A program made the position numbers and the translations under genes. Shown one piece after another: positions 12,705-37,544 of a stretch of 64,000 bases of DNA (positions are counted from its first letter, which is position 1; each line of letters starts with the position of its first letter). Under the pieces are notes generated by a model. That model saw only the letters and a program-made list of their open reading frames with translations. It ran no database searches and was not told the origin of the DNA. Source of the DNA: Hypomesus transpacificus (Eukaryota > Chordata > Actinopteri > Osmeriformes > Osmeridae); assembly GCF_021917145.1 (NCBI RefSeq), contig NC_061066.1, forward strand, positions 4,502,782 through 4,566,781. The letters run 5' to 3'.

Positions 12705-13586
12705 TTACAGTATTTTGAAGGCAGAGGGGAAAGTGCCGTAAGTAAGAGAAGAGTTAAGGACATGGAGAAGAAAAGTTATGATGGAGGGAGAGATGGTTTG
12801 AAAGAGAGGGGAGGGGACTGGATCAAGGGGACAGGAGATGGGGCGATGAAAGAGAACAAGGTCAGAGATCTCTGCCTCGGACAGGAGAGAGAAAGAGTTT
12901 AGACATTTGGTAAGGTCAGTCATAGAGGGTGAGTGGGTAGGAAAGGTGGGTTCAGGGAACTGACTGCTAATGTTGGCAACCTTTTTCTGAAAGAAGGAGG
13001 AGAAGTCGTATGCTGCCAGGGTGGAGGGGTGGGGGAGGGGGGTTAAGAAGGGTGGAGAAAAGTTTGTGAGGGTTTGAGGCAGAGTTAATTTTGTTCAGAA
13101 AGTAGTGGGTTTTAGCATCAGTTATGCGGGCAGAGAAGGATTTGAGGAGGCATTGATACTTATCAAGGTCCAGACCGTCTTTGGACTTGCGCTATCTCCT
13201 CTCAGCTGCCCGAAGGATGGACCGTTCTTCACGAATAACATCCGTGAGCCACAGGCAGGAGTGAGAAGATCGCGCAGGCCTGGCTGACAGGGGACAGAGA
13301 GTGTCGAGTGATGCAGTTAATGTGGATAACAGGGTGTTAGTGGCAGTGTCGGTGGGGTGGGATATTAACTCGTCAATGGGAGGGAGGGAGGATGTTACAA
13401 TGGAGGAGAAATGGGAGGGGGATAGGGAGCGAAGGTTGCGGCGGAAAGTTACGAGGGGAGGGAAGGTAGTAGGGGTTTGAGGGAGAGAGACAGAGAATTG
13501 TATGAAAGAGTGATCAGAAATGTGTAGTCGGGTGATCAGAAATGTGTAGTCACAATGTAGTTACAGAGGTTAAGTCAGTGATACAG

Positions 13587-14166
13587 TTACGTGTCAGGAT
13601 GAGGTTGAGCTGCTCTCCTGCCTTGTGGGTCGCCGGTGTGTTCAGCAGCTTCAGGTCGAAGGAAGTCAGAAGAGACTTGAAGTCGACGGCCGGCGTTCCT
13701 TCGAGGTGGATTTTGAATCAGCGGTGTTCCATCATCCGGAAGGACGCTGAGGAGCATGTCCAGCTCCTCCACAAAGTCAGCTAGCGGCCCTGGTGTCTGA
13801 TAGAGGACAACTAAAAATGCTTTGATAGGATCAGTTAGCATCACATAATGGTGTTCAAATGATTTGGCAGTAACAGAGAGTGGGGTGGATGTGTATTTAA
13901 TATGTGGGGAAAGAAGCAAACCTGTCCCACCACCTCGCCCAGTTGAGCGAGGTGATGAGGAGAACGAGTGGTTGACGGAGAGAGCAGCTGGAGTTGCAGT
14001 GTTCTCTGGGCGGATCCATGTCTCTGTCAGCGCAAGAGAAGCATGGGATGCAAATGCCGGGATGAAGTCTACCTTGTTCACAGCAAGCTGGTAGTTCCAG
14101 AGCCCTATAGAAAGAGAGAGGGCAGGTCTGCTAGTGGTGTAATGAGCGGGAATGCTGAAGAAACAC
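13587..14166 (-). pseudogene. LINE endonuclease remnant (copy 1)
   Basis: Exonuclease-endonuclease-phosphatase type endonuclease of an L2-like LINE. SLALTETWIRP holds the conserved Glu, and GTGLLLSPHI and VEELDMLLSVLPDDGTPL follow. A deletion near 13725 removes the GDFN motif and shifts frame, so the last part of the open frame is not LINE-like protein. The frame upstream of 14170 belongs to the inserted hAT. Confidence 0.8.
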
Positions 14167-14174
14167 ATGCTAAC

Positions 14175-15145
14175 TAGGGATGGGACGTATGGCACTGACG
14201 CATCGATGCTTGTGTCGCAAAACCAATACGCACAGTTTCTAAAAAGTGTTTTGGAGCTTGTATCAAATTTCGAAACCACGTGACAGATGACGTTCAATGC
14301 TTCAAACGTCACGAACTGGTTCGAAGTTTTGCCGCTCTTCTGAACCAGAGCCATGGAAGGAACGAAGCCACCGCTTCTTGTTAAAGACAAATCTCACATT
14401 GTCAGAGAAGCAGCACCAGGCATCGCTAGAGTTTCTTCCATCAGTCATTATTATTTAGCCAAATCCGTATAGTAATAATTATAAATCCGTGCATTTGTGT
14501 TGTGTTATTTTATTGAAATGAAACGTAACATGATAGGACTAGGTAGGTCTATACAGTGCCCAGAAAACAAATGTTGATGATTCGTCAACATTGTCAACAG
14601 TAATAATAATTTGTAAAAATAAAGTTCCCCTAGTTCGCAATAGACCTACATATCACAAATGTTAAGAAAAAATCGGTGTTATCTAGTTTAATTGATATAA
14701 AGACCATATCGTATAAACTCCGTCCACCCGCAACAAGAAGTAATGATTTCTTCGGTGGTGTAGTTGGTTAAAACATTATACGCCAACATTGTTAATGCGA
14801 ATCTGGAATCCTGAGTTCGCGCCCCAATGCAGGGACCCTCGTACGACGTTCTTTAACTTTTACTGTGAGAAAATGACATAATTCTAAAGGCCTACGGATG
14901 TATCACAACATTTTAATGTGTGAGAACTAATATCAGATCAAAATGAACACATGTAGCCTTAATTAAATATTGAATAACGTAGGGTAGTCTACCGTCGGAG
15001 ACAACCACTACGCCTCATTCAGCCAGTTTAAGCGGCTGCTAGATGACGCTGTTCATTTTCAATGCGCCGATAGTTCGGCTCTTTGGGCCGGCACAATCCG
15101 GAAGAAACCACCAAAGCTTCACAAGGCATCGTTCGCCCATCCCTA
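14175..15145. mobile_element. hAT-type non-autonomous element in the LINE, 8-bp TSD
   Basis: Ends TAGGGATGGG (left) and CCCATCCCTA (right) are flanked by the perfect 8-bp repeat ATGCTAAC at 14167-14174 and 15146-15153. The 971-bp interior has no transposase frame. It contains a tRNA-like stretch near 14757-14825. Confidence 0.9.
14757..14825 (+). other. tRNA-like stretch inside the hAT element
   Basis: GGTGTAGTTGGTTAAAAC resembles a pol III A box in a D-arm context, and GAGTTCGCGCC about 50 bases later resembles a B box. The arms do not pair well enough for a working tRNA. It could be a captured tRNA-derived fragment. Confidence 0.35.
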
Positions 15146-15390
15146 ATGCTAACTATGAATATGTTCTAGGTGGATTAGAATACAAATAGGTTGATACTTA
15201 TCTGAATAGGTGATCCGCCTCGTCGGCCATTCTCGGTGGACTCCCGCAGGTAGACTCCCTGTCTTTTCTCGACCGAGTCTTCGTGCACCGAGGCTACCAG
15301 ACGAGGCTGTCACTGCAGTGCTAGCCGCCTTAAATATGCTAATGCACATCTGACGATGGCCCTAATTATAATGTCAACAGAGCTGGGTCT

Positions 15391-15799: not shown

Positions 15800-15806
15800 C
15801 GGTGGC

Positions 15807-17250
15807 CAACCCAGTCTCATCCCAACTCGTCAAATATTGACGCTTGGGCAGAGCCCTTTGGCGTCACTATACCGACGCCGGGGGACGCCTTTTTCGTCGT
15901 TTTTTGACGCCTAGGGACGCCCATTGACTTCCACGTTAATATGTTCGGCTTTTCCCGTAGAAAATTGTGAACTATGGCGTCGTATTTTGACGCATTAGGT
16001 CTCCCATAGATTTTGATGAGCGGCTTTCGGATTTTTACGAAACGTCACCATAATAAGTCGGGTGATTTCGTAAAAATCCGGCCGATGTGCTTTCAACATG
16101 ATTTTTTTGTTACATCCAAGACATAAACGTTATAAATGACATAAACCTTATTTAAGGACATAAAAGTTATTTATAAAATGGACTGATACCAAATAAACCG
16201 ATCTAAAAAGGTAGGCCTATATGCATAAAAAAGAAAAGAAAAATAGAATCCATCGGGGGAGGAATATCATTTTATTTTAATCATAATTTTAAGCGCATGG
16301 AAGCAATCATGTCAAATGCACTGACAGGAAAACCTATAAATTATCCAACATTATTGTAATTTTATTATTACACACAAGTCGCCTAAAAGTTTGACGCTCA
16401 ATATCTGGCTGGAACTACTTCTTGTCACCCAAACCTCCGCTCTCTCGTACTGAAAAGGTAAGCTATTATCGATGAGGTAAACGTATATTTAAGATACTAT
16501 CCTACTATACAGTTTTTTTTATTGTTTTTAGGTTGGTTTAATGTTATTATGTTTGACGTACATTGCCCGGTGCTTTGCATCACCAATATAAATTAATTGA
16601 CTTTGTAAACTGCAAAAATAGGCTAACACACTGTGCTAGCTAGTTAGCTAGTCTAACGTTATGTCATGCAAGGTCATGAACCGGTGCACTTTCATTGGAC
16701 TCAGACCAATGTTTATCTTTGCTGGCGTGGTCCTTTTTACATCTCATAGCTTGCTAGGTATGACATTTATTGTATTGTATTTTTTATCTTTTCTTACTTG
16801 CAGCTGAAGTCACGCATTTTCTGGAAACGATATCGATATCCTTATTACCTCACCATATTATTACCTCACCATATCCTTGCCTTACTGCCTATTTTAATAA
16901 TTTGTCAGGACGTACCTGTGTATACCTGTGTCCACCTACCTCTGTCCACCTGTGTTACGCCCTCCACAGGCTCTGCCTGTCTTTCTGTTTGTCTGTGTTT
17001 GTGTGAATCTCCAGGCTGCAGTGATCCAGTCCACCCTACCTGCACAAGATCCACACCTGCGGTCCAGTTTCCCAATAACTTGCGGTGACATACCCTGGTT
17101 TGCCCTCCACTCACCGCCAGATCGTTGTTTTTACAACCTGGTACCTACGTTCCTGGCCTCCTTGTACTTCCGAGTCTATTATCTACTATTTGTCTTCAAA
17201 GTGTTCTAATATTGCACTTTCTTGTGTCCCAAACAAACATCCCACTCACC
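15807..17250 (+). repeat. Left terminal inverted repeat of the KDZ element
   Basis: Matches the complement of about 30785-32241 almost base for base. Differences are few, for example AAATATT versus GAATATT near the end and a CAGACAAACAGAAA-type insertion in the right arm. The outer 200 bases hold eight GACGC/GCGTC words. Arms 16028-16042 and 16066-16080 form a perfect 15-bp inverted repeat (CGGATTTTTACGAAA). Open frames inside this arm recur in the other arm and have no protein motif, so I treat them as non-coding. The accessory gene starts about 230 bases inside. Confidence 0.9.
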
Positions 17251-17477
17251 CCAACTCTCCATCTGCCTGCCTACGCGCTCTGCTTGCTACCTGCCTCGGT
17301 GTTTGTGAGACAAATATATACATTACTTCTTTCCATGTTCATACCGAAGTTCATGCTTTACTACAATACCCATAAGCCATAGGAATGAAATGTAAGAATA
17401 ATAATTATTTAATGTGTGTTACTCATATTCCTACTTGCAATGCTTATAACATGTCAATGTGTTTATGTTTGCAGAAA

Positions 17478-18978
17478 ATGACCAAACCCAAAAGCAGGCC
17501 TTGCCCTCACTGCCAGGTCATGAATACTGTCAACCGCAAAACATGCCTTTCATGTTTTGCAAGCCTCTCACAAAAAAAAGAGGATTAAGTCCAAGGAGGA
17601 GAGTTTGCATGTTGGTGACTGGGGGGGAGAATGTGAAGAAGCACCGCAACGCAGGCAGAGTGATAGATTCAGCCCGCATATCTGTGAGTGAGAATGTGGA
17701 GGTCTTAGGTTACGGTTCCATTCAGATTCATACTATAATGGTCGGAACTTGATATCAATGCCAGTTTCATTGGTATCAGGCCATATCATTTAATCAATAG
17801 CAGCATCACATCTTATAGTCTTCCTGTAAGGACCCCTAGCTTTGTCAATTTCAAAAGAAGTATAGTAGATACTTTGAAAAGTAGGAAGAAGTATGATACC
17901 ATTTCAAAAGTAGTTGATCAGATGGCAAGAGAGCTGATACAGAGGACAAAGCCTGATAACTTGTTAATGTCTGTTTTTTAGGTCAATAAGCTGCATGAAC
18001 TGGACTTAAAGCCCCTGCTCTTCATGGGTAAAGAGAAGAGAGGGGGGGGGGGGTTTACAGCAGAGGTCATTGCAGGCATAGGCTTCATACCAGAGGGGCC
18101 TGTGAGGGAGATCATTAAAAAAATGACCACCCTTTATGAATACTATCTTAAATGTAAGAACACATATTTTGCATTGGGACATGCTTTTTTATAACTTTGC
18201 ATTTAGTTTCTAAACACATTATGTAACATAAAATATACTAATAGAATATTGTTGATGAGTAAATATTCCCCGATTAGACCCTGTTTCTGTTTAATTAACC
18301 TCATTTGTGGGGCTGTTATAGTTAGATTCAAGCTGGGAGCAGAGAACATATTGCTTCCCTCTACATTTACTTATTTGTCTTTATCTCTCAGACCACAATA
18401 GCCTCGTTGCCACAGCTGGTGAAGAAACAAGAGAAGAAACACCAGAAGCAACATCCCCTGCCTCCACTCAGGATCAAACCTTCACCCTTAACCTTGTCCC
18501 GGTCCCCCACCCACCTCCTATGACTTCCTCTCTCTCTTTATCTACTCTTCCTACTCCCTCTCTCTCTACATCTACTCTTCCTACTCCCTCTCTCTCTTCA
18601 TCTACTCTTCCTACTCCCTCTCTCTCTTCATCTACTCTTCCTACTCCCTCTCTCTCTTCATCTACTCTTCCTACTCCCTCTCTCTCTTCATCTACTCTTC
18701 CTACTCCCTCTCTCTCTTCATCTACTCTTCCTACTCCCTCTCCCTCTTCACATCCTATGACTCCCTCTCTCTCTTCCCCTCCTCTTCCCTCCCACTCTTT
18801 CTGTTCTCCTGCTCTTCCCTCCCATTCTTCCTCCGCACCTCCTTTCCCCAGTCCCTTGCTCTCTTTACCTCCTTCACCAACCCTCTCTCTATGTTACCCA
18901 CTTTCTACTTCTTCCCATATCTCTTCTCCTCAAGGTCTTCCCAAAAATCATTCCCCGGGAAAAAGAAAAAGAATTTAA
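17478..18978 (+). CDS. KDZ accessory gene: zinc-ribbon plus Ser/Thr/Pro-repeat protein, 3 exons
   Basis: Exons 17478-17683, 17982-18153 and 18392-18978 have clean AG/GT borders and compatible phases. The start follows an acceptor (TTTGCAG) at 17474. The N-terminus MTKPKSRPCPHCQ carries a CPHC...CLSC four-cysteine zinc-ribbon-like motif. Next come DSARIS and, across the junction, VNKLHELDLKPLLFMGKEKR, then FIPEGPVREIIKKM. The last exon is Ser/Pro/Thr rich, with about seven tandem STLPTPSLSS decamers, and ends in the basic GKRKRI. The frame holds only if one base is dropped from the A8 run (17572-17579) and one from the G7 run (17621-17627). The gene is therefore either slightly damaged or affected by homopolymer errors. 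It would be about 320 residues. I do not know its function. A DNA-binding partner of the transposase is a guess. Confidence 0.55.
18535..18765 (+). repeat. 30-bp coding minisatellite (STLPTPSLSS units)
   Basis: Seven or so near-perfect 30-bp units of the TCTACTCTTCCTACTCCCTC type in the last accessory-gene exon. Several central units look identical, which suggests recent unequal exchange or slippage. Confidence 0.9.
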
Positions 18979-19256
18979 GGTAAAGGTTGTCTTATGTAAG
19001 GGTCATATGCTTATGCATTATGAATAATCTTTTCTTGTAATGACCCCAAAAAAATCAGGCAAATCATCTTATTTGTTATTCCTCTGTTCATATATTTTCA
19101 GGCTGCAATTTCCTGTTTAAAAAGAGGGATGTTCAAAGCAGGTAAGCTCAGATGCATGCAATTGTGTTTCATTTAAATTATTTTTAGTGGGGGTTTAATT
19201 ATTATTAAAGCTTTTTTGAGTTAGCTTGTCCATGAATCCATCTTGCCAGGCTTCAA

Positions 19257-19470
19257 GTTACATTTACATTACATTTAGTCATTTAGCAGACACTCTTATC
19301 CAGAGCAATTTACAGCAAGTACAGGGACATTCCCCCTGAGGCAAGTAGGGTGAGGTGTCTTGCCCAAGGACACAACATAATTTGCACAGCCAGGAGTCAA
19401 ACCGGCAACCTTCTGATTAATAGCCTGATTCCCTAACCGCTCAGCCATCTGACCTTAGGCCGTCTGAAGT
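19257..19470 (-). mobile_element. tRNA-derived SINE, minus strand
   Basis: On the minus strand it has a tRNA-like head (GGTCAGATGGCTGAGCGG, then GGTTGCCGGTTTGACTCC), a conserved middle with CCTTGGGCAAGACACC and a tail matching AGCAGACACTCTTATCCAG on the plus strand. Other copies lie at 54622-54812 and 63288-63361. It sits in the 3' region of the accessory gene and is not needed by the element. Confidence 0.85.
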
Positions 19471-19549
19471 AATGCACTTGTGGCCAAACGAATTATCATC
19501 CTACAGAGGAACTCCTGGCAGCTACAGGCCTTAGATAGAGAGTGATAGA

Positions 19550-20425
19550 TAGGGGTGGGCCATATGGCCAAAATCTTCTATCACGGTATGAGTAATTTTA
19601 TATCACGGTTACGGTATATATCACGGTATAGTAATTGTTCTGTAAATTCAGTTAAGAAATTTTACCAGTGCCACTAGTGTGGTGGAAAAAACAGTATTGC
19701 ATGTACTACAAGACGTTACTGGCTATTATTTAAAGGCAACGACAGTACGAGCGTTCCGATTGGCGGATGCACAGTCATGCCATCCGCATGGTGACGTACT
19801 CACAGCTCAGAGTTTTACTATCAATATTTAACTTCGGTGTCGGCGTATCAACCTTCTTAAAGCTCGGTCGATACGTTAAAGCCTCAGTTTGATATTTCCC
19901 GGCATGTCCTCACTCTCAATAGTCAGTAGCTAGCCTTCACTAGTCATCCTAAATCAAGAATGCTAGCAACGCCACCAGTGTAATTTTACAACAATAATTT
20001 TACAGCACGAGACATACAACTTGAGCAACAAATCAAATTGGTTACCTGCAGAATGGGTCATCAAATATATAATTAATTAGCATCGGCATGAATGTGTACT
20101 CCACATCAAAAATTCCGTCAGACCAACGCAAATCTGCATCAAGGTCAAACGAAAATAGCAAATCAAATAAAAGTTAAACTACAATTCTAAATATTGAAGG
20201 AATACGATTTATGCAATGGCTTATATACAATACAACAACCAGACATTTAATTGACGTGAAATACAAAAATATCACAAATTTGTAAAGACTTTAGATGCGA
20301 GCCCTTTTTGCCCAACCCAAAACATTTAAAAGTAGTCAAAAAGTATACCGCGGTTGAAACGGTATAGCCAAAACTCTCCCGGTTTCTGCCGTCGAACGGT
20401 ATATACCATCATACCGCCCGGCCCT
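19550..20425. mobile_element. hAT-like non-autonomous element
   Basis: The left end GGGGTGGGCCATATGGCC and right end CCGCCCGGCCCTA are inverted. Subterminal ATATCACGGTA words recur near both ends. Flanks ATAGATAG and ATAGACAG form an imperfect 8-bp repeat. No transposase frame was seen. Confidence 0.65.
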
Positions 20426-20948
20426 AATAGACAGATACAATCCCTTGCAATTTTAGGGGTAAAAGCGCCTGCCCTTTTCCTAACAGTTTCCAAGGATGAC
20501 TTCCCCAGGTGGTTCTGTGCAACAAACTATCTGACTTGTCACCATTTAGGCCCATCGAACTCTAAGAGACTGTACTCTTATCTTTTGGCTATATCTCAAG
20601 TTCTTTCCTCCATCTGAAATGTAGCCAACAGCATTTTTCATCACAAGCAACTTGTGAAAAGCCTATAGTTCCTGTTGTTAAAAGTTGAACATTTATCATT
20701 AAACATACATTGCCTCTGTGAAGAAACTATCACCAACTTGAATCAGAGAAATTAACTTCTACTCTACTAAAGAACTGCAGTATCCAATAAGAATTCGTTA
20801 TTCTTTGTGTTAATTATAGTCCTGTAACGGCCACAGATACCAGATTCATATTACTGTCCAAGCATTTGATTTGATTACTATTAGGATTTGAATTTTATTT
20901 AAGCCAATACGACAAAATGTGCTTCTCCAAACCCTTACTTATACAGTG

Positions 20949-22068
20949 TAAAAGGTCCCATGATATGAAAACTTAACTTTAGGAGGTTATTTAACATTAA
21001 TATGAGTTCCCCTATCCTACCTATGGTCTAGCCTGGTCCTAACCAGACCCTCGTACATTTCATTTGTACAGAGGGTCTGGGATCTCTCCATTGACAAACG
21101 TTAACTTCCTTGAAGGCGGGTCCTCTGTTGAAGTGTAAAACAATTGGATCCGCCCAGAACCACTCTGATTTGCCATAACCAATCGCAAGCGTTCGCCTTA
21201 GCCAACTCCTTCACCACTACTGTAATGGAGCAAGCTGCCGTAGCTGGAAAATCAAACTTTTCCCGAACCCCGTGGGGAGGAGGGCCACAACATCATGGCC
21301 ACCAACAAAACTCAGCAAGGAATGTTCTTGCTCCGGCTTTAACCTATATTCGGCAGCGTTGCCACAACCGCAGAATAGTTTCGCTCGCATCTTTCTCCGC
21401 CGCCATTACTGAACCACTCAAACAAGTGCACGACATTAACGTCATCGTTCTCAGCCACTCCCTCTGTTCGCTGATTGGACCTACAACAAATTTGTTTCTG
21501 GAAACCGACTTCAGAGCCGAGCTCCCAGACCTAGTACAGAAGCAAAATCCAAATTGAGCGGAAGTACGTAGGAGGGCAGAGCCAGGCTACCTATGGTCCC
21601 CCAGTGGCTAGAAATTGCGATATGTGTAAACCAAGCCCTGGATGTCCTGCTCCGCCTTTGAGAAAATTCAAGTTCAGATGGGCCCATCTGGAATTTTCCT
21701 CTTATGCGTTATAAGGGGGAAAGGTTACCTCCCCTTACTCTGCGTTGCCCGTCCAAAGAATATGGCCCGCCAATGATAAAATTAGCTACGACTGTGCAAG
21801 CACGATATTGTTTTTTCCTCGAGAGACATCATGGCTTACAAACGACCGAAGCATGGCAGTTAGCCCCGCCTCTCTCCTCCTCATAGCATTCAAAACTACA
21901 GATACAGGAACGGCACATCCTGAGGAAAGCTCATTGTGGGACTGCTCGTAGTGGCTGTAATTCTGCACGAAGGCTGAATTTCGGGAGGAGACTTCAGATA
22001 CAGTATTAGGGACCACTAAGGCCTATATAAAAGCATCCAAAAACAGCATGCCATGGGGACCTTTAACT
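20949..22068. mobile_element. TIR repeat (AAAGGTCCCATGA ends), interrupted
   Basis: The left end AAAGGTCCCATGATATG and right end CATGCCATGGGGACCTTTA are inverted. It is split by the 561-bp element at 21029-21589. A shorter relative lies at about 60740-61203 with the same GACTGCTCGTAGTGGCTG and CACTAAGGCCTATAT blocks. No coding capacity. Confidence 0.75.
21029..21589. mobile_element. MITE with 9-bp direct flanking repeat
   Basis: The ends TAGCCTGG and CCAGGCTA are flanked by CCTATGGTC at 21020-21028 and 21590-21598. Removing the element rejoins the surrounding repeat cleanly, as in the related copy near 60860. The open frame at 21144-21557 has no known motif. Confidence 0.85.
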
Positions 22069-22619
22069 TAAGTCACATAATCTCATGGTGAAATTGTAAA
22101 AACAGATAACATTGATCACTGTATTTCACTAACTTTTGATAAAGTAACCACTATGTTATCAAAATTTTACTTACTTAGTCTTACTCTTATTTTTATACAT
22201 ATTTTATATTTAAATTGTTTTATTCTTAGATTTTAGTTCTAAGAAATAGTTAAACTTTTGCACTTTTACTTACTTTAAGATCCGTATGTTTATTGTTTGC
22301 CCCTCCCTGCCACCGTAAATTCATACATAGTGAATAAACCATATTCTGATTCTGATGTGTATTTCTTTTCACAGTGTAAAAGAATGGGAGGATACCTGGA
22401 AGTCTGCTGTTAATATTTCTGTGCCTAGCTGCCTGGTTATTGTTTAAAGAGTTCCCAATTCTATATTTGTTATTGATATACACTGTAACATGTTATGAGC
22501 TTATTGTGATACTGTTACGGCCACAATCTTTTTCTCAGTTCAAGTTTTGTTTGTTATCCACTTACATTTACATTTAGTCATTTAGTCACTTCCTGGGTTC
22601 TAGGCATCGATTTATGGTT

Positions 22620-22860
22620 GCCTCCATAAAACTTAACTTATAACACGGGTGAGTTGGTGACCAAGCTAACGTTTTCGGGTTTTTGTTTTAGATTCACTGT
22701 TAGGTAAGGGAGCGCGCTGGCTCCGCCTTCCCATTGCGGGGAGGACCAGCGGCTGTTTTTCTGTTCAATAAACTTTGGTATTACTTTTATAAACATTGAC
22801 TTTCATGGTTGGACTCACTTATGTTAGCCTACAAGCAACCGTCTGATCCTTTGCTTGGTG
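22620..22860 (+). repeat. Inverted poly(A)-bearing module, left copy
   Basis: Contains GGTGAGTTGGTGACCAAGC, CTCCGCCTTCCCATTGCGG and an AATAAA at 22767-22772. Its complement lies at 25460-25715. It lies downstream of the accessory gene in the sense orientation, so it may be that gene's 3' end. Confidence 0.75.
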
Positions 22861-23518
22861 GAGGTAAGAGTAGACTACCTATGAAGAGAAAACTTAGATT
22901 AAAAATTAGGCCATCACAAGCGGATGTCAATTTGTTATCTTATTAACACCACATTACATACAATGTTAAATGATGGATTCCTTGTGGCTGAATATGAATA
23001 ATCTGTACTGGGAGTGTGGCGCGATGACGTCACATTCAGAATAATCCATGCCTTAATAAAGGTGATGGCATGAAGATAGGCTATATGAATTATACATTAT
23101 ATACACTTAACTAAAATGATAACCATAGCGAACTTACGTGGACTACAAATATGGCGCATATTAGTGTTAAAACATATTGGCGGGGTTGTGGGAAATGTAG
23201 TTCTTTTTTACTTTCAATTAAAAAACTAATTTTTTGAGAAGATCTTTGTCCTCAGTTACATTTAAATCACTTAATATGACAAATATACATTCATTGGTCT
23301 TTTATGAAAGACAAAATGTATCAGTACTCGAAAAGTCAACATTTAAATATCTTTATATGTAAACTTTACTTAACATTATTTGACATCATTATCTTCGCAC
23401 ATGGTTCCAGTATGATGTGAAGAGTGTCAATATTGGTCTAAATACAAAATCCCAGGATGATCCTAGCTTCAGATAGGAAAGAAAATTGAATTGAATTTTA
23501 GGAAAAATTACCTTTTCT

Positions 23519-24176
23519 AGGTGGCGCTGTTGATCCCCTGTAGGGGCTAGGGTTATGAAACTAAAAGACACAGTTTATCTAACCCCAGTCATTCACTGTA
23601 CCAAGCAAGGACTATGTGCCATGAAAGGAACCCAAATTACCATACTACTACTAAATATAGGGCTTTAAGGTGACCCCTGGCAAGGGTTCAAAGGTCAATA
23701 TATCAGATAAGGGTTTACAGGAATGTGTCAAATTTACATAAATGAACCCGCAAGGTAAGACCTTTCCAAAAATGGGTTTGACGTTGTTGTACGACAGTCT
23801 TCCATCAATCCAATTCAATCCAAATCTGCCATTGCAGTGAGGTATCTTTACAAGTATAGATTCCAAGACCATTCATAATCTAAATAGACGACATCAGTGG
23901 TCAAAGTCAAATTATGTTTTGGTGGCACATAGTCCTGGTTTAGCACAAACAGAACCAGGGTACAGAACCACTTGTGCATTTGTTTATCCCCAAACTTAAA
24001 AGATGATTAGTTGTTCTGCATAAGACATGGTCTGAACAGACAGCGCTAGGGTTAGGGGTTTGATGTCCTTGGTGGTACATGTTCGTGGCTTGCCCTGTCG
24101 AATATTTTGGACTAGTAAATACTTTTTTTCACATGGCTTTACCTCTAAGCCAGATAGAGGCTCAACAGCGCCACCT
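23519..24176. mobile_element. Putative MITE with 15-bp TIRs
   Basis: AGGTGGCGCTGTTGA at the left end and its complement, with one mismatch at most, at the right end. No convincing target duplication or coding frame. Confidence 0.5.
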
Positions 24177-24743
24177 TGAAATGTTCATTTTCAAAATCTA
24201 AAATGTGTCTTGTACTCCAATGTATGCTGTTACCGGGCTGAAAATTTACATGTTGATCCATTGAGACATTCCATGCAGTGTGACAAAAACATTCAAAACT
24301 CGGATTTAATATAAAATAAAAGTATGAGAAAAAGACATTCCAAAGTTTACTTTTGTAGTGCTGATTATATATAATGCGTATTGATCTATAATGCATATAC
24401 ATTTTACATTTCTGATCAATCTAATATAAAATTGGAGATGATATTGGTGTAAAACACAAATTACTAAAAGAACTACAAACGTATTCCATTAAACACTGAA
24501 TCGAGATGTTGAACGACGGCATATTTGTAGTTCAACTAGGCCTACATGTTTCAAAGTTTACATGTTTAGGGTTTGAAAACAGAACATCTTAACAATTGAT
24601 ATATCACATACAAAGTATGTATGAATAGATTATAATATATTGGAGGTGTTGAAGAGGTAATCAATATTAGCATTAAATGCCCTAGTTGGCAATGGAGTAG
24701 TATTTTAAATGAGATGACGCATCGAGGGATTAGCCTTGACTTT

Positions 24744-24860
24744 AGGTGTATTCGAATTCATGCAGCGCCGGCGGCACCGACAGCCGGCCTCGCTGACTTG
24801 AAGGAGTGAATGCCATTGGCTGGTCCGCGCCGCCGGCCCTGCATGAAGTCGAACACACCT
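24744..24860. repeat. GC-rich foldback repeat A
   Basis: AGGTGTATTCGAATTCATGC at the left pairs with GCATGAAGTCGAACACACCT at the right, with CGCCGGCGG/CCGCCGG inside. It forms a long hairpin and stands out in an AT-rich background. A relative lies at 25138-25270. Confidence 0.75.
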
Positions 24861-25137
24861 TTTGTGTAGGCTAGGGCTACTTAAATCATGGTGTATGGCA
24901 AGATTTGTTGGTAGCTATATTTAGCCTTTTTGGTTTGTCATAATGTGTAATTTCGCATAATTAGAAACCATCCGATTACTTCGTTTTACGATTGTTTGGA
25001 ATCTCGTTGGTTTTAAAGAACTACAGTTAGCTATCAGTAGCTTTCAGCTAATTCAGGGTTCCGTTGGGAGGATCCCTATTTGCGTGGTTTATATGCCAAA
25101 TATTCCCACTCATTTCTATCAACAGAAAATGCGTCTA

Positions 25138-25270
25138 TAGGTACATTCGACTTCATGCAGCGCCGGCGGCGTCGACAGCCGGCTGCCTTGAATCTGAGAA
25201 TACCATTGGCTGCGTCATGTCAGCCGGGCTGCAGGCGACGCCGGCGCTACATATTACACACAGAACTTCA
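25138..25270. repeat. GC-rich foldback repeat B
   Basis: Shares CATTCGACTTCATGCAGCGC with foldback A and ends in GACGCCGGCGCTACAT. The hairpin is less perfect than in A. Confidence 0.65.
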
Positions 25271-25459
25271 ACCTCATCCAGACTCAGATTTTCACTAATG
25301 GTCACTAATCAATATTAAATATTGAGATGATAGTTGTCTCGAGTTATACAGAGTTAAATCAGAATTTTTCAAAAACAATCTGGATAATTGAAATATATGA
25401 TGAATAAATATATGATGAATAATAAATGAATGATTTATCCCCATCATTTCCCAATTGCC

Positions 25460-25715
25460 CAATCTGCCAGCCAACATAAATTGAGTCCAACCACGCAAGT
25501 CAATGTATGTAAAAAATAATACGAAAGTTTATTGAACAGAAAAACAAGACTGAGTTAGTGAAAATAAAACCAAAACCTGGGAGCCGCTGGCGCTCCCCGC
25601 AATGGGAAGGCGGAGCCAGCACGCTCCCTTACCTAACAGTGAATCTAAAACAAAAACCCGAAAACGTTAGCTTGGTCACCAACTCACCCATGTTACAAGT
25701 TAAGGGTTATGTTCT
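25460..25715 (-). terminator. Inverted poly(A)-bearing module, right copy; candidate 3' end of the KDZ transposase
   Basis: Complement of the 22620-22860 module, with AATAAA on the minus strand at 25533-25528. It lies about 200 bases downstream of the transposase stop codon, which suits a 3' UTR and cleavage signal. The left copy plays the same part for the convergent gene. Confidence 0.5.
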
Positions 25716-25912
25716 ACCACTCATTTACAAATAATGCTCTGTGCTCTGCTGCAGTCATGCTCTGGAGGCAGCCTTTGTTGCAATTGACTCGCCTGGGCCA
25801 TTACAGGTAAAGATCAAAGGGAGAGAACACACAGTATACATTACAGTATATCAAGTTAGGTCTCAGGCGATTACAGCTGTGACTGAGTGATTCAGATCCA
25901 AGTGACTTGAAT

Positions 25913-28900
25913 TCAATTCTCTGCATCCTCCTCCTCATCACTATCATCATCATCCGAGCTGTTGCCACGTTGCCAGTCCATGTCTTCTTCCATTTCCCTG
26001 TCCTCCTCTTCCACCAGCCTGTTACTTGGTTTGAGAGTGCATCTGTAGGTGCCTGCTATGGTCTGCTGTTGGAGTCTCAGGTCTTGCAGTCTTCTTTTTA
26101 GTGCGCTGATGAGGCCCTTGGACCCCTCCTCGGTTAATCCATTTGGCAAGCCTGGAAATTTTGTTAATTTATGTTGAAATTAATTTACCGAAGACTATAC
26201 TTGCAGGATTGGTTTCCACTTAAATAGTTTGACCTATAAATTTGAAAATGCATGTAGCCAGATCATTTGATTTACACTTACTTCCTGTCTGTGTGCTCAC
26301 TAAAACAGTGCCCATCAGTGTCTGGACCTTTGCCACTGAGTCCTTGAGGTACTGGCAGTGCTGCAGCATCTCCTTCACAAGGATCTGCTTTTCCTCTTTT
26401 AGTCGTGAGGCAAGCATTACGTGGTCAAAGAGCTTCTTCTTTGTAAGGATGTCCACACCGTCTGTCAAGGAATAAAAACATTTGACATTAATAAACTAAT
26501 TTGATGACATTTTATATGCATACTTAAGTTAAATCTTGATGCAACACCTGTGTTCTGTTCCTGCCAAGGCCAGATCATGCTCTCTGCAGCTTTGTTAGAG
26601 ATTTTCTGCACAACTAACTCTGTGTCCACAAGGTCACCATCAGGCTGTTAGTTGTATCTCTGGATGTCTTCCAGCAACCGTTTATTTTCCTAGGCTATCT
26701 TTTGAGTTATTTTCTGTCGCCTTTTGTTGCGATCTGCAAATACAGTAAAAACAATAGTACGTAAAAAGAGCTGCCATGGTAATGAAGATATCAGTATAGC
26801 CTAAGATTTATCTGCATTAGTTATGTTTAGACTATACATACCATTTTGTCTGTAAAGGTAGTGCTTTTTCTGACAAATGCTCACAAAGAGTGCTTCGATT
26901 GTGATCTGCAAACTTTGAGCATCAACAGGACCAGGTGCTGCGCTTCCTTGATTAGAGATAAAATAAATACACTTTTAACATTTAAGCTACAGATATGCAG
27001 ATATTACAACCAAGTGACTGAGAGTGTTTATGAATTAAGTATTTTTCTTACTGCTACTGGCCCACTGCTTGACATCAACAACCCATTGTTTCAGCATGTC
27101 ATCACAGCAATGCAACTGCTCCTGCATTGTCTTCAGGCTCTCAGCTACATCCACAGTCTTCTCTACTGTCTGAAAACAGCAATACAGAAGGTCTTTAAAA
27201 CTACCAGAGGTCCTGTACCACTACAATTTCTACTAGGGGGTACTATAACAACCTGATGCATTTTGGGTATAATAAGTAAAAGTTACGTTTATATGTAACT
27301 GCTTTAAAAAGTTAATCATCTTCAGTATGTGAACACACCTTCTTGAATCTAGAAGACAAGGCTATATGGAGGCCATTCTCTTTCCGTTCATTCCACCCCA
27401 TAGCATGGACAGTCAGCATGTCAGTTCTTACTGTGAAGAACAAAACAAAATCACAATACAATTTTGTAAAACAAGTACATTTGCAGGCTGGCAGGGGGAA
27501 ATAACCTTACAAACCTGACTTGGCCATATACTTGGTGGTAAGGGCACATCTGGAGAGAAAACTATTCACTTGCTCTACTTCTTCACCGAGAGTGGTGCCG
27601 GCGCCCTCCTGGTTCCTTGCAGTCCACAGAATCTACAGGAAGAAGATAATGTGTAAAGCGGTGTGGACACGTTATTGAAGCATATCCTGAGATTACCAAC
27701 TTTAGAGGGCAGCACTTAGGGGCTACAGAAAAACTTTAAACACACTCCTAGGTTGTTGTATGGGTCAGTCCAGACCACTGTGGTATGGCTATTGTCATTT
27801 ATTATGGCATTTTACACTCAGTTTGCCACATCATACTCTAAAATGTACGGTCAAGTAGCTAAAAGCATCACCTCGCATTTTGTATTGTGGGCTTTGGCAT
27901 GCATCACAGACAAGCAATGCCTCATTTCCTGAAGGGGTTGAAGATGTGTCAGGGCCTCTGACACTTGTCAAGTATGGCACATATCGGCAGGTTACATCCA
28001 TGGCCAAAAATGTAGCACTCTGGAACTCTTTTTGGAGAAACATTGGATATGCAAAGATTTCTCCTCTATACATATTCAGACCTTTAAAAAAAGCACAATG
28101 CACATGAAAGAGGATTTAGATCATAATATAAATATATATTATTTTATTTTTTTACTACTACTTAATCAGACCCATGCCAACCTTTGAGAAGAAATCCATG
28201 TCTACACACAGCAATTTCCACACCTTCTTCATCCAACTTGTTGGCCCGCTTTGAAGTCTCTCTTGCTGCATTCCATTGGGTGTCACCACACATCGCTTTT
28301 CCTGCGGTCTACCAAAGTAAATCATTTGAACATGACAATAGTTAATTCAAGTACACTAGATTGCAGGATTGTTCACGCAAACACACAAACTAACTGTCAA
28401 GATTTTGTCATTGCCTGACCTATCTTACATTTGAAGGATAAAGCAATATGCAATATGAATGTACTGTGCCCCCTGGATAAGAATCTAGTGCTGTATCCCC
28501 ACCTGATCATAGACTCCCTTCTCCAAAGGCAATCGTGTTTTCTACTTTAACTTTAATTAGAACAAAATAATCCCAATAAATGTTGTTCAGAATAATGTAA
28601 AACGTACACTCTTGACAGTTCCCCGGACCTCCTCAACAAAACTGGACACCTCAGAGTCTCGGGCTAAAAACACTCCATCGAAGAACCCTGGCTCTTCACT
28701 CCTTTAAGACAATGTATTATGGACTACCTTTGTAATAGGACCTTTTATTTATGTAGCACTTATCAAAAAAAACATTGACATTAACAGTGTCATTAACAGC
28801 TGGACATACTGTATATTAACTACATTGGCTGTTCATTATATGTGCACAGAACTCACTGGTTTGTTTTCTGGAACCTGTACAACTTTCTGTTGCCATCCAC

Positions 28901-30750
28901 AGAAACAGCCACCATTTCAGGGCTACAGGCTGGACAGACCAATGGCTCCTTTCCAAGAAGTTGGTTCTCTTCATAGTTGCAGTACACAAATTGCAGAAAA
29001 CTTCTCTGAAATGCATCTGCATTCACTTTGCCAGTCTAAAGAAAATAATATAATACAGCTTTCAAAAACGATAAACTACATCTTTGCCTTTGTATGTTTT
29101 GTGTTTTGTATGCAACTTTTCAAATCCATAAGGATGCAAATGACTATTTTGTGTGGTAAGGTCTTCAGTCTACAATCTGAAATATGTACTACCTACTACA
29201 GCCACTTGTGGACCTTGAACTGCTTTTTACTTACTCTTCCATATTGCTTTGTTCTCTGGTCCAACATTGCTGTAAAGGCTTGTCTGGACATTCCTGGAGC
29301 TGCTGTCTTCATAGCCTCAAAGGAATGGAAGAGATCCTGGTGGAACAGTGTCTGTGCCTGCATGGTAGCAGGCCAGTAACCACTCTTTACAAAGTCACTG
29401 ACTTCTGGAGCCCATTTCTGGTTGCAATGTTTGCATGTTAGCACCGGAACGTGAAGATCATAACGGCCTGAGAGCACATGAAAGGCAAATCAATAACATG
29501 AAACCAAAGTGACGTGTTAGTAATATAAAAAAATTCAACAGTTTAACAAGATCCTACCATTTATGCAAACCAGTATGATGGATCTACCAACAGAGACTGC
29601 TGCATCAGCGTTGTCACAGGACCATATCCTTTGAGGTAGAGCTGTTGGCAGAAAACAATCTGCAAGGCAAAGAACCATAAGCTATACAATTAATAATGTT
29701 TGGGTTGTGAGTAATGACTTAAATAACACATTTCAATTTCAGATAAGAATGATCTGTTAAGAAAATTGACAATCAATTGTAAAATAAATGCCAACCTTGT
29801 TCACAAATGCTGTATTTTCCAGTGTCACAGAGTGTCACAGCCTCTGTTGGTGGGATGTATTTGAAAAATCCATCCATGATGGTTTGCCTGTTGTGTAGAG
29901 TGTGGTGTTTATGTACCGAGCCATCACACTCAGCACAAAACCACTCTGAGGGCATACATTCCCCACAACGGATGACAGCTTCTTTCACGTGACAGTGATT
30001 GCATGTCATCTGTACGATGTTCTCAGCAGAAAGTAAATTGTCAAGGTTCTGTGGCCTCGCCTGTTGCCAACATTGTTGGACCTTTTTCTGCCTTTGACTC
30101 CAACTGGACAATGGTGGCTGCTGAACAAAATCTTGCGATTCCATGTTCTCTGAGTCCTGTAGAAGGTCCTCAAGCTGCCGCATATTCAAATCTTCAAAAG
30201 GGAGGAGAAAAAATAATAATATCGTAACTCCAACATCGCCACAACACACTGTTGAAATACAGCATTTGGAACAAAAGATTATTCACCATGGTCTAGGTGT
30301 TGGCCATGGTCTAATGGCGGTGAAAAAGAAACATGTCTTCCTTCGTCTGGTCTTTGTGATGTTGACTGCTTTCTAAGGGCTCGTGGGCGCTGGTGAACAA
30401 TGTCCCCATTGTGGTCCCTCTTCTTCCAATGAACAGGCTTTGGTGATGTGGTCTTAGTTTTCTGTCTGTTCTTCTCTGTCTAGAATTACAACTTGGTTTA
30501 AGAAAGGTTTACCAATATGGGAAATGCCTTCGGACTACTGACAGAAAAAGCAGTTAAAGTAGTGTAACCCTTCTGATTCATGTCTTTTAAATACGCCTCC
30601 ATGTATCTTATATGAACTGGTAAGAAGGAATACTGTTAACTATAGACAAAACAGAAGCTGCTTTACCTCTTCTGTCTTGAGATGTTCAAGAAATGTATCT
30701 ACACTCTTGAGCTCATCCTCCAATTCCATCAACTGCAAATCACTCATCAT
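25913..30750 (-). pseudogene. KDZ (Kyakuja-Dileera-Zisupton) transposase, 16 exons, damaged
   Basis: Exons on the minus strand: 30750-30667 (start MMSDLQLMELE), 30479-30287, 30191-29796, 29659-29558, 29467-29235, 29035-28857, 28701-28608, 28308-28182, 28081-27872, 27632-27515, 27430-27339, 27169-27052, 26937-26842, 26733-26548, 26461-26282 and 26151-25913. All have AG/GT borders and compatible phases, about 880 codons. A CxC cysteine cluster comes first (CNHCH, IRCGEC, WFCAEC, LHNRQ). The KDZ core follows: VSVDGNRKLYRF with the likely first catalytic Asp, PGFFDGVFLARDSEV, DEEGVEIAVCRHGFLLK, NMYRGEIFAYP, VMHAKAHNTKC, NQEGAGTTLGEEVEQVNSF, RTDMLTVHAMGWNERK. The C-terminus is coiled and acidic (EEEDREMEED...DDDDSDEEED). 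Lesions: a +1 frameshift at about 27963-27972 and in-frame stops at 26692-26690 and 26650-26648. The transposase would cut and move this element in the nucleus. Confidence 0.85.
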
Positions 30751-30784
30751 TGAGTTGAAAGAGTAGACAGACAAATGGGCAGAT

Positions 30785-32241
30785 GGCGAGTGGGATGTTT
30801 CTTTGGGACACAAGAAAGTGCAATATTAGAACACTTTGAATACAAATAGTAGATAATAGACTCGGAAGTACAAGGAGGCCAGGAACGTAGGTACCAGGTT
30901 GTAAAAACCACGATCTGGCGGTGAGTGGAGGGCAAACCAGGGTATGTCACCGCAAGTTATTGGGAAACTGGACCGCAGGTGTGGATCTTGTGCAGGTAGG
31001 GTGGACTGGATCACTGGAGCCTGGAGATTCACACAAACACAGACAAACAGAAAGACAAACAGAAAGACAGGCAGAGCCTGTGGAGGGCGTAACACAGGTG
31101 GACAGAGGTAGGTGGACACAGGTATACACAGGTACGTCCTGACAAATTATTAAAATAGGCAGTAAGGCAAGGATATGGTGAGGTAATAATATGGTGAGGT
31201 AATAAGGATATCGATATCGTTTCCAGAAAATGCGTGACTTCAGCTGCAAGTAAGAAAAGATAAAAAATACAATACAATAAATGTCATACCTAGCAAGCTA
31301 TGAGATGTAAAAAGGACCACGCCAGCAAAGATAAACATTGGTCTGAGTCCAATGAAAGTGCACCGGTTCATGACCTTGCATGACATAACGTTAGACTAGC
31401 TAACTAGCTAGCACAGTGTGTTAGCCTATTTTTGCAGTTTACAAAGTCAATTAATTTATATTGGTGATGCAAAGCACCGGGCAATGTACGTCAAACATAA
31501 TAACATTAAACCAACCTAAAAACAATAAAAAAAAACTGTATAGTAGGATAGTATCTTAAATATACGTTTACCTCATCGATAATAGCTTACCTTTTCAGTA
31601 CGAGAGAGCGGAGGTTTGGGTGACAAGAAGTAGTTCCAGCCAGATATTGAGCGTCAAACTTTTAGGCGACTTGTGTGTAATAATAAAATTACAATAATGT
31701 TGGATAATTTATAGGTTTTCCTGTCAGTGCATTTGACATGATTGCTTCCATGCGCTTAAAATTATGATTAAAATAAAATGATATTCCTCCCCCGATGGAT
31801 TCTATTTTTCTTTTCTTTTTTATGCATATAGGCCTACCTTTTTAGATCGGTTTATTTGGTATCAGTCCATTTTATAAATAACTTTTATGTCCTTAAATAA
31901 GGTTTATGTCATTTATAACGTTTATTACTTGGATGTAACAAAAAAATCATGTTGAAAGCACATCGGCCGGATTTTTACGAAATCACCCGACTTATTATGG
32001 TGACGTTTCGTAAAAATCCGAAAGCCGCTCATCAAAATCTATGGGAGACCTAATGCGTCAAAATACGACGCCATAGTTCACAATTTTCTACGGGAAAAGC
32101 CGAACATATTAACGTGGAAGTCAATGGGCGTCCCTAGGCGTCAAAAAACGACGAAAAAGGCGTCCCCCGGCGTCGGTATAGTGACGCCAAAGGGCTCTGC
32201 CCAAGCGTCAATATTCGACGAGTTGGGATGAGACTGGGTTG
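30785..32241 (-). repeat. Right terminal inverted repeat of the KDZ element
   Basis: Complement of the left arm. The 15-bp inverted repeat pair lies at 31968-31982 and 32006-32020. The transposase start codon at 30750 lies only about 35 bases inside the arm. The arm is thus placed to act as promoter and leader for the transposase, just as the left arm is for the accessory gene. Confidence 0.9.
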
Positions 32242-32644
32242 CGGTGGCAGAGTACTCAGGGTCGTCTTTAGTAATTGGGGGCGTTGTATCTGTGCATTAG
32301 CATATTTAAGGCGCGTAGCACTGCAGAGGCAGCCTCGTCTGGCAGCCACGGCGCACAAAGACTCGGTCGAAAAAAGACAAGGAGTCTACCTGCGGGAGTC
32401 CACAGAGGAAGGCCGACGAGGCGGATCACCTATTCAGATAAGTATCAACCTATTTGTATTCTAATCCACCTAGAACATATTCATAGTTAGCATGTGTTTC
32501 CTTAGCATTCCTGTTCATTACACTACCCGTAGACGTTGATATGTCACAAAGTATACAAGGTCAACTTCTAACCTTCAGTACCTGTCCAGATCTTCTCCAC
32601 TTGCCCTCTCTCTTTCTGTAGGGCTCTGGAACTGCCAATTTGCT

Positions 32645-33373
32645 GTGAGCAAGGCAGACTTCATCCCAGCGTTTGCAACCCAGGCTTCTCTTTATGCCCT
32701 TGCGCTGACAGAGACATGGATCCGCCCAAAGAACACTGCAACTCCAGCTGCTCTCTCCGTCAACCACTCCTTCACTCACTCACCCCGCTCAACCGGGTGG
32801 GATGGTGGGACAGGTTTGCTTCTTTCTCCACATATTAAATACACATCCACACCACTCTCTGTTACTGCCAAATCATTTGAACACCATTATGTGATGCTAA
32901 CTGATCCTATCGAAGCATGCTTAATTGTTTTTTATCACCCACCAGGACCGCTAGCTGACTCTGTGGAGGAGCTGGACATGCTCCTCAGCATCGTCCCGGA
33001 TGATGGAACCCCCCTGATAGTCCTTGGGGACTTCAACATCCACTTCCAAGGAACGCAGGCTGTCGACTTCTTGTCTCTCCTGACCTCCTTCGACCTGACG
33101 CTGCTGAGCACACCGGCGACCCACAAGGCAGGCAAACAGCTAGACATCATCCTGACACGTAACTGTATCACTGACTTAACCTCGGTAACCCCACTGCACA
33201 TTTCTGATCACTACTTTATCCAATTCTGTCTCTCTCCCTCCAACTCCTCCTACCTCCCCTCCCCTCGTAACTTTTCTTCTCCATGTCTTAAACTCCTCTC
33301 TTACCTCCGGCACCTTACCCTCTGCCTTCAAACAGGCCAGAGTTACCCCTCTACTCAAAAAACCCTCCCTTAA
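32645..33373 (+). pseudogene. LINE endonuclease region (copy 2)
   Basis: AP-type endonuclease: ALALTETWIRP (catalytic Glu), TGLLLSPHIKYT, VLGDFNIHFQG (Asp and Asn of the GDFN motif), DIILTRNC and HISDHYFI (catalytic Asp-His). These motifs are intact, but the frame runs into unrelated residues after about 33270 because of the downstream deletion. Confidence 0.85.
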
Positions 33374-35950: not shown

Positions 35951-36150
35951 TTAACAAGCCATTAAACAGGCGTAACTAATAAAGTGGCCGGTGAGTGTAT
36001 ATGTTACTATTACGATTAAAGATTTGTTTATTTTACTAAACGAGATTCAAAGAACCCGATTCAGTAAAATTATCTGAACTTCCCATCACTACTAGCCAGG
36101 CTAGCATATAGCAACCTACTACTACAGTGCTAGTTAATATCTGTGGGTGC

Positions 36151-36446
36151 TGTCACGACGTGAGGTGGGGTTGGACCCAAATGCAGGGGAGTACCGAGGC
36201 ATAGCGAGGAACACAGGTTTAATTCTCAAAACGGGAAACAGACAGGGTACACACAGGGACAACGGGTAATGCTAAGACAAAGACTGGACACAAAGCAGGA
36301 ACCTAAATACACAGAAACAAACAAGACACAGGTGAACACAATGAAACTAACGACAACTGAACGAGACAGGTGACGACAATGACAGGGAAACACTAGGGCA
36401 GGGCAAAAACCAAAAACAATAGGGGGGCACGGCTGTGGCCGTGACA
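36151..36446 (-). repeat. 3' LTR of the non-autonomous LTR element
   Basis: 296 bp, TG...CA ends. On the minus strand it has a T-rich start, a TATTTA-type box and an AATTAAA near the end, typical for an LTR. Confidence 0.9.
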
Positions 36447-36448
36447 GT

Positions 36449-37544
36449 ACCCCCCTCTCAAGGGACGTCACCCGACGACCCACAAGGCAGGGCAGGGGGT
36501 CAGGGCAGGTCCGGGGGACGACCTGGAGGCAGGGCAGAGGGTCGGGGCAGGTCCGGGGGACGACCTGGAGGCAGGGCAGAGGGTCGGGGCAGGTCCGGGG
36601 GGCGGCCCGGAGGCAGGGCAGAGGGTAGAGGCAGGTCCGGGGGGCGGCCCGGACGCTGGAGCACGGGGGCGCATGGGAGCGCGGACGAGGGGGGGCGCAT
36701 GGGAGCGCGGGCACCGGGGCGCATGGGAGCGCGGGCACCGCGGCAGGCAGCAGCCAGAAGTCCTCGGGCGGAGGAGGAGGCCAGAAGTCCTCGGGCGGAG
36801 GAGGCGGCGACCAGGAGTCCTCGGGCGGAGGAGGAGGCGGCCAGGAGTCCTCGGTCGGAGGCGACCAGGAGTCCTCGGGCGGAGGAGGAGGCGGCCAGGA
36901 GTCCTCGGATGGCCTGGCACTGGGCGGCACAACCTCGGGGCGAGGCAGGGGCTCAGGGCAGGAACGAGGCTGGGGCACAGGGCAGGAACGAGGCTGGGGC
37001 ACAGGGCAGGAACGAGGCTGGGGCACAGGGCAGGAACAAGGCTGGGGCACCGGGCAGGAACGAGGCTGGGGTACAGGGCAGGAACGAGGCTGGGGTACTG
37101 GGCAGGAACGAGGCTGGGGTACTGGGCAGGAACGAGGCTGGGCTACAGGACAGGAACGAGGCTGGGCTACAGGACAGGAACGAGGCTGGGGCACAGGGAA
37201 GGAACGAGGCAGGGGTACAGGGCAGGAACGGGGCTGGGTTCTGGCGGCAGGCGGCCGAAACTCCCTGGCAGGAACAGCCTTGGTGGTCTGGGTGCTGGGC
37301 GGCGCAACCTTCTTCGTCCGGGCGCAGGGCGGCACAACCTCAGGATGAGGCAGGGGCACAGGGCAGGATCGAGGCAGGGGCCCAGGGCAGGACCGAGGCT
37401 GGAGTCGGGGTTCCGGCTGGGGCTGGAACCAGGACTTGGGGTGGGCCTTGAGCTGCAGGCTTCGGGGTCCACCAAAGGCCAGGCGGGTCCCTAGGAAAGG
37501 GTTGGGTGAACTCTCTGCTGGGTCCCATCTTGGTCTTAGCGTTC
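36449..37544 (-). CDS. Repetitive Pro-rich ORF inside the LTR element
   Basis: One minus-strand frame covers the whole interior and runs on into both LTRs (476 codons, 37656-36226). It has roughly fifteen PRSCPVPQ-like octamers (24-bp unit) and then EDSWPPPPPPEDSW-type repeats. The plus strand is also open over most of the same DNA (36435-37451), as expected from a 24-bp unit lacking stops. No gag, protease or RT motif is present. I cannot tell whether any protein is made. The repeat may simply be a GC-rich minisatellite carried by the element. Confidence 0.35.

Follow-up and report, generated by a model that had tools for sequence, protein, structure and literature searches.

A delta smelt KDZ transposon with long inverted arms, Kyakuja-like ends and a conserved second gene

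Transposases of the KDZ (Kyakuja, Dileera and Zisupton) superfamily have an RNase-H-like fold. Within this superfamily, Zisupton has short imperfect arms of ~99 bp and a single gene of 24 exons, with the extra domains ULP1, SAP and SWIM. The transposase superfamily of maize MuDR is unrelated to KDZ. The two convergent genes of MuDR have their promoters in its arms, according to the accessible part of PMC3440606. Among the three KDZ groups, Zisupton alone is called well characterised as a transposon by Kojima (2025; PMC12730594), ahead of that paper's own fungal additions; its accessible part gives 8-bp target duplications for Zisupton and, for fungal Kyakuja, 7-bp duplications, 5′-CA..TG-3′ termini and no terminal inverted repeats. 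Nematode Zisupton-like genes are accompanied by inverted repeats, with duplications not found, in the accessible part of PMC9297572, and the main text of PMC12083275, which deals with the related H. nipponensis, lacks the words Zisupton and KDZ. Here we describe an element at positions 15807–32241 of a 64,000-nucleotide stretch of the delta smelt (Hypomesus transpacificus) genome (RefSeq assembly GCF_021917145.1, NC_061066.1, positions 4,502,782 to 4,566,781; hereafter ‘the window’) that carries a KDZ transposase gene on the minus strand and a convergent second gene, gene 2, on the plus strand.

Positions 15807–32241 form a single mobile element with termini CAACCC...GGGTTG (Table 1). A first-pass annotation, made from the sequence alone, had reported near-identical inverted arms and a 7-bp flanking repeat, and both were found: the arms are 98.0% identical across 1,481 columns, and a check of the duplication length gives 7 rather than 8 bp, CGGTGGC standing on both sides. 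Its arm length of 1.44 kb needs correction to 1.47 kb for this copy (range 1.44–1.48 kb in all 11 copies compared). The joined minus-strand exons match the Pfam KDZ profile (PF18758; E-value 5.7e-31; score 108 bits, cut-off 26.6; covering profile positions 4–217 of 217), in keeping with the superfamily originally proposed, and also match CxC3 (PF18804; 1.9e-16), an N-terminal CxC-type cysteine cluster. The proposed count of 16 transposase exons likewise stands: we rejected a 17-exon model, since its second exon is absent from P0001, an annotated H. transpacificus relative, which leaves 16 coding exons. In identity and anatomy, this is very probably a decayed copy of a cut-and-paste KDZ DNA transposon with recent activity in delta smelt. 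We describe it as a KDZ element with Kyakuja-like ends and do not file it as a Kyakuja, the assignment having been made from ends and duplication length; by duplication length, the element is not a Zisupton.

The more interesting part of the element is gene 2, which had been annotated as a convergent three-exon gene and given no identity. Convergence and three exons both hold; what had been overlooked is that this is a shortened form, with the remnant of a later exon at 22379–22423. Gene 2 belongs to the element, as seen from its genomic positions, from arm sequence in a European smelt gene model and, most strongly, from a second family of KDZ elements in this genome.

That second family is represented at C20 (C20:2741000-2760999; L044, L045) by a 13,230-bp unit with 1.56-kb arms that are 99.9% alike, so that the family is probably very young. 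Its ends, CAACCC/GGGTTG, are those of the window element, its arm sequence is otherwise unlike, and it is flanked by the 7-bp duplication GCAGACC. The C20 transposase starts just inward of one arm and is 30–61% identical to P0001, depending on the stretch (59–61% in core exons); just inward of the opposite arm lies a convergent gene 2 homologue with the same three-exon form. The joined product of this homologue scored 26.9 bits against the gene 2 profile (composition bias 13), compared with 13.5 for the best of 1,000 shuffles, and the exon that follows its three, ECLYHTSLKVFPIRSVIKERV, resembles the chromodomain start of gene 2 relatives (E 0.006, six-frame scan). At C328, C13:5.47M and C158:0.11M, a gene 2 homologue again adjoins an arm in convergent orientation (with exon 1 alone seen in the 5 kb read at C158), which brings the second family to four convergent homologues at the four places examined, out of six listed.

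Within the family of the window element, our genome scans scored all 87 gene 2 candidates and 54 of 390 transposase candidates, and a missing transposase is for that reason weaker evidence than a missing gene 2. A convergent transposase is listed at 19 of the 22 gene 2 loci, with a spacing of 12–16 kb at 17 of them, ~11 kb at C56, which sits at a cut contig start, and 38 kb at C39. In European smelt (Osmerus eperlanus), the gene 2 model P0127 starts in translated arm sequence and matches both arms of the window element (1.6e-38, 1.0e-37).

A first search returned 13 proteins related to gene 2 and a profile search 30 (8,000 candidates scored). Those with a named source are all teleost, including Danio rerio, carp, wolffish, sablefish and European smelt, and a search of viral contigs for gene 2 found none. 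These relatives share their start, which is zinc-ribbon-like (C..C, C..C), as well as a conserved middle and a Ser/Pro linker, and the cysteines and many other columns are invariant in those of other teleosts (10 sequences). In nine of 18 relatives scanned, at E-value limits of 1 and 0.1, a C-terminal Pfam Chromo match was listed: P0136 (1.8e-4), P0126 (2.6e-4), P0124 (7e-4), P0128 (1.2e-3), P0123 (3.1e-3), P0135 (0.016), P0125 (0.022), P0134 (0.039) and P0131 (0.17). Searched against solved structures, the gene 2 profile matched the chromodomains of Polycomb (1pdq, 0.003) and HP1 (6asz, 0.048). Gene 2 is of a kind apparently able to read chromatin marks in other fish, which suggests a new way for an element to handle its host.

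The end of gene 2 exon 1 was placed by comparison with P0121. An A-run and a G-run each break the frame of exon 1 in the window copy, although errors of assembly could also account for these. Exon 3 diverges between copies by 6.7%, far above the other exons; a 30-bp minisatellite at 18493–18897 encodes part of its Ser/Pro linker.

A protein search with the transposase gave 150 relatives, 120 of them listed, and every listed row with an organism was from a fish. The best listed relative, P0001, is 98% identical over aligned columns and has a matching exon pattern. The VDGN Asp is invariant in 50 of 50 aligned relatives, and the MDVTCR Asp and GEEVEQ Glu residues are present in at least 90%. A search of solved structures for transposase relatives listed none that was relevant, returning two weak matches to CONSTANS zinc fingers (0.33, 0.47). 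The window transposase is itself broken, by a frameshift just ahead of VMHAKAH and by two in-frame stops (Table 1), and since gene 2 is broken too, this copy could move only with transposase supplied by another. The earlier description of it as a nearly complete representative therefore holds for its anatomy and fails for its coding capacity, both genes being disrupted and the chromodomain core of gene 2 lost. Among the 11 copies, only the C1/C134 locus is free of lesions in exon, frame, stop and splice dinucleotide; its transposase frame stays open through 885 codons. A deletion of ~157 bp, which removes the first half of the CxC3 exon (exon 5), is common to five of the 11 and suggests that copies with an altered transposase gene have spread as a subfamily, perhaps helped in trans.

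The genome searched comprises 437 Mb in 376 contigs and contains at least 43 arm matches (40 of 62 candidates scored). The arm alignment that had been proposed as a way of finding other copies succeeded, and we compared 11 copies at 10 loci, the window included, the C1 and C134 records carrying one insertion with identical flanks. Aligned with the window, the 10 other copies form collinear blocks of 94.9–99.5% identity, and seven of them lie in the opposite orientation. In seven of the 10, the stretch from about position 18.9 kb to 20.3 kb of the window is unmatched (in C22, to position 21.6 kb); parts of the region between positions 28.2 and 29.0 kb are missing from C6 and parts of the middle from C158; C17a and C6 contain extra inserts, and C2 contains 500 N. 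The listed alignment chain of C1 starts at 18523, yet its left arm was compared separately. Transposase exons differ from those of the window copy by 0.76%, and introns by 0.95% (10 copies, with C1 and C134 both counted). The smelt KDZ family of the window element is young.

Both ends were fetched at 13 distinct loci, where the target duplication is 7 bp in 10, 8 bp in two (C2, C15) and absent in one (C158). Five of seven further single ends have CAACCCAGTCT; the last bases of C63 deviate, and C356 gave no match to the end strings searched. With these two exceptions, the ends at 15807 and 32241 given by the first-pass annotation coincide with those of other copies. Two insertions lie in local repeats whose uninterrupted units supply a target-like site with a single 7-bp copy (C17a, 56/60 bases; C91, 49/49). 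The first 300 bases of the window element hold eight GACGC motifs, whereas 5,000 mononucleotide shuffles averaged 0.45 and never exceeded 4. The motif does not occur in the first 300 bases of the second family (C20) and is therefore specific to one family, which is how a binding site could behave.

These features suggest how the element might work. The KDZ transposase would bind the subterminal GACGC array, cut through its Asp/Asp/Glu residues and insert the element with a 7–8-bp stagger. One promoter type, duplicated in the 1.47-kb arms, may drive the two genes inward, on the plan of maize MuDR: the start codons lie close inward of near-identical arms, so both genes would be read from the same upstream sequence. 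For the gene 2 protein we favour an accessory function, linking the element with host chromatin via target choice or relief from silencing. We hold such a role only tentatively, at about one third, since profile scores for the chromodomain are low and the smelt family has lost the chromodomain core. Similarly speculative, and somewhat short of an even prospect, is the broader proposal that this lineage of teleost KDZ transposons is an old two-component system, in which a transposase and a zinc-ribbon/chromodomain partner are expressed from duplicated arm promoters and the partner reads chromatin marks, steering insertion or escaping silencing.

Several observations weigh against our reading of the element. 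Every Chromo match falls under the Pfam cut-off of 25.1 bits (best 21.8), and none is listed for the other nine of the 18 relatives scanned (P0121, P0122, P0127, P0129, P0137, P0138, P0140, P0141 and P0152); the structure search that found chromodomains also lists unrelated low-complexity matches at similar E-values (Mediator, 0.023), and Pfam DZR matches to the zinc ribbon are below cut-off. The remnant of the last chromodomain exon is present in all 11 copies of the smelt family and the chromodomain core exon in none, so that the three-exon gene is a shortened form and the family has spread, at least lately, without the core. Exon 2 of gene 2 is out of frame at the second G-run in seven of the 11. 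No gene 2 is listed at the transposase loci C356, C44 and C15 near 3.2 Mb, nor does the divergent gene 2 at C367 have a KDZ transposase in the 18 kb downstream. Finally, transposase substitutions relative to the open-frame locus (32 synonymous, 85 nonsynonymous and 4 stop, with 21/75/5% expected under uniform change) look neutral and give no sign of selection within the smelt family.

Some of these observations would also fit gene 2 as a passenger, a host gene fragment captured once and hitch-hiking without function for the element. The gene is broken in the window copy and without its chromodomain core in all 11 copies, and it is unlisted at three of 22 transposase loci; conversely, with 54 of 390 transposase candidates scored and absence accordingly weak evidence, no transposase is listed near gene 2 at three of 22 loci (C63, C371 and C11) or beside the divergent relatives at C367:347835, C2:5318862 and C8:13370098 (43–46%). 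We nevertheless judge a passenger unlikely, given that the second family, with a transposase only 30–61% identical, has a homologue in the same orientation and position inward of the opposite arm at all four places examined, that the C20 homologue keeps the three-exon form, and that cysteines and many other columns are invariant across the 10 sequences from other teleosts.

It is equally improbable that the whole element is simply Zisupton sensu stricto, the KDZ lineage known earlier from fish. A Pfam scan of the joined exons lists none of the Zisupton domains ULP1, SAP and SWIM, the duplication is 7 bp at 10 of 13 loci and the termini are CA..TG, as for Kyakuja; the window element does match the same superfamily profile, and the two loci of 13 with 8-bp duplications have the length that the accessible part of PMC12730594 gives for Zisupton. 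Far less credible still is a composite, in which the arms come from another, larger element that was entered by the KDZ gene and gene 2. Foreign-looking pieces do lie in the interior (SINE-like sequence at 19282–19455, inverted repeats starting at 22625 and 25582, and a fragment of helicase sequence at 21217–21405). Against this, the 10 other copies have the arms, the regions of both genes and most of the interior in common; both genes begin just inward of the arms; and the second KDZ family repeats the plan with unlike arm sequence and an identical terminal CAACCC. We continue to favour a single KDZ transposon to which both genes belong.

Table 1. Features of the KDZ element and its immediate flanks, in window coordinates.
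Feature	Position	Strand	Remarks
Left target-site duplication	15800..15806	.	CGGTGGC
Left terminal inverted repeat	15807..17274	+	Starts CAACCC; upstream of gene 2 (putative promoter region)
Subterminal cluster	15839..15993	.	8 GACGC motifs (count above all shuffles) across both strands, with a mirror image in right arm; putative binding array for transposase
Gene 2 exon 1	17478..17683	+	Zinc-ribbon-like start MTKPKSRPCPHC; window frame broken at A-run (17572) and G-run (17621)
Gene 2 exon 2	17982..18153	+	Second G-run in frame in window copy
Gene 2 exon 3	18392..18978	+	Ser/Pro-rich linker, partly 30-bp minisatellite; stop follows GKRKRI
Remnant of last gene 2 chromodomain exon	22379..22423	+	KEWEDTWKSAVNISV
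Transposase exon 16	25913..26151	-	Contains stop
Transposase exon 15	26282..26461	-	
Transposase exon 14	26548..26733	-	Window copy with two in-frame stops
Transposase exon 13	26842..26946	-	
Transposase exon 12	27052..27169	-	
Transposase exon 11	27339..27430	-	
Transposase exon 10	27515..27632	-	GEEVEQVNS, presumed catalytic Glu
Transposase exon 9	27872..28081	-	MDVTCR and VMHAKAH; frameshifted in window copy
Transposase exon 8	28182..28308	-	
Transposase exon 7	28608..28701	-	FFDGVF
Transposase exon 6	28857..29035	-	VDGN, presumed first catalytic Asp
Transposase exon 5	29235..29467	-	CxC3 cluster; first half deleted in 5/11 copies
Transposase exon 4	29558..29659	-	
Transposase exon 3	29796..30191	-	N-terminal cysteine-rich region
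Transposase exon 2	30287..30479	-	
Transposase exon 1	30667..30750	-	Start codon immediately inward of right arm
Right terminal inverted repeat	30763..32241	-	GGGTTG at end; upstream of transposase (putative promoter region)
Right target-site duplication	32242..32248	.	CGGTGGC

The interior of the element holds further features. The short interspersed nuclear element (SINE)-like stretch at 19282–19455, which has an inverted repeat at 54625–54799, falls in the region unshared in seven of the 10 other copies. The scrap of DEAD/RecQ-like helicase at 21217–21405 (minus strand; Pfam DEAD, E 1.5e-4, under cut-off) lies in a stretch common to nine of the 10; apart from it, 10 further frames in the region between the two genes have no Pfam match. 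The inverted pair at 22625–22754 and 25582–25711 consists of 130-bp arms, 95% alike, that enclose ~3.1 kb of interior and is possibly a nested element. Both of its arms occur in nine of the 10 other copies (C158 is without the first), which makes the pair older than the spread of the family.

Outside the element, an older repeat encloses the insertion, with inverted stretches at 12714–15348 and 32291–33332 that are 75–94% alike; the right-hand stretch continues into what, by eye, we take to be coding sequence of a long interspersed nuclear element. Elsewhere in the window, two 300-bp stretches (98% alike) surround GC-rich tandem repeats of 24 bp and 42 bp at 36140–37833, and a complex satellite-like region at 53372–58808 has 273-bp units and a duplicated block ~1.98 kb apart.

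With this locus, a vertebrate KDZ lineage with Kyakuja-type ends gains exact ends, a duplication length, a gene structure, a lower bound on copy number and an open-frame locus. What is new beyond the first-pass annotation is the identification of a conserved second gene in a KDZ element. Our literature search found no paper that joins a chromodomain to a KDZ transposase and nothing on a CxC3-like cysteine cluster; an earlier description in Repbase, Bohne 2012 or Iyer 2014 is possible. If our proposal is true, gene 2 would act on histone marks as fungal TET/JBP genes are thought to act on DNA methylation, and KDZ accessory genes would touch epigenetic marks in two kingdoms, through TET/JBP in fungi and a chromodomain protein in fish. 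This raises the question of whether KDZ transposons depend on a partner to cope with host silencing.

Like platyfish Zisupton, the smelt element belongs to the KDZ superfamily, lives in a fish host, has a large many-exon transposase gene and shows signs of recent activity; it differs in duplications that are mostly 7 bp rather than 8 bp, in 1.47-kb rather than short arms, and in having 16 transposase exons and two convergent genes where Zisupton has a single gene. With fungal Kyakuja, as presented in the accessible part of PMC12730594, it shares a KDZ transposase, a 7-bp duplication, CA..TG termini and a second gene that accompanies the transposase; the fungal elements have no inverted repeats and a TET/JBP dioxygenase as second gene, in contrast to the 1.47-kb arms and zinc-ribbon/chromodomain-type gene of the smelt element. 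A Pfam scan of 27 proteins or pieces, covering part of the short frames, gave no match to a TET/JBP dioxygenase. Maize MuDR, in the accessible part of PMC3440606, likewise has two convergent genes that begin at the arms, for a transposase and a protein of unknown function, but its arms are ~215 bp long with promoters in or beside them, whereas a promoter role for the smelt arms is presumed from their position. Chromodomain Gypsy retrotransposons, as far as the accessible part of PMC12477816 describes them, offer another mobile element encoding a chromodomain, one thought to steer integration; theirs is fused to integrase, whereas the KDZ elements, as DNA transposons, have it in a protein apart from the transposase, and the smelt family has lost it.

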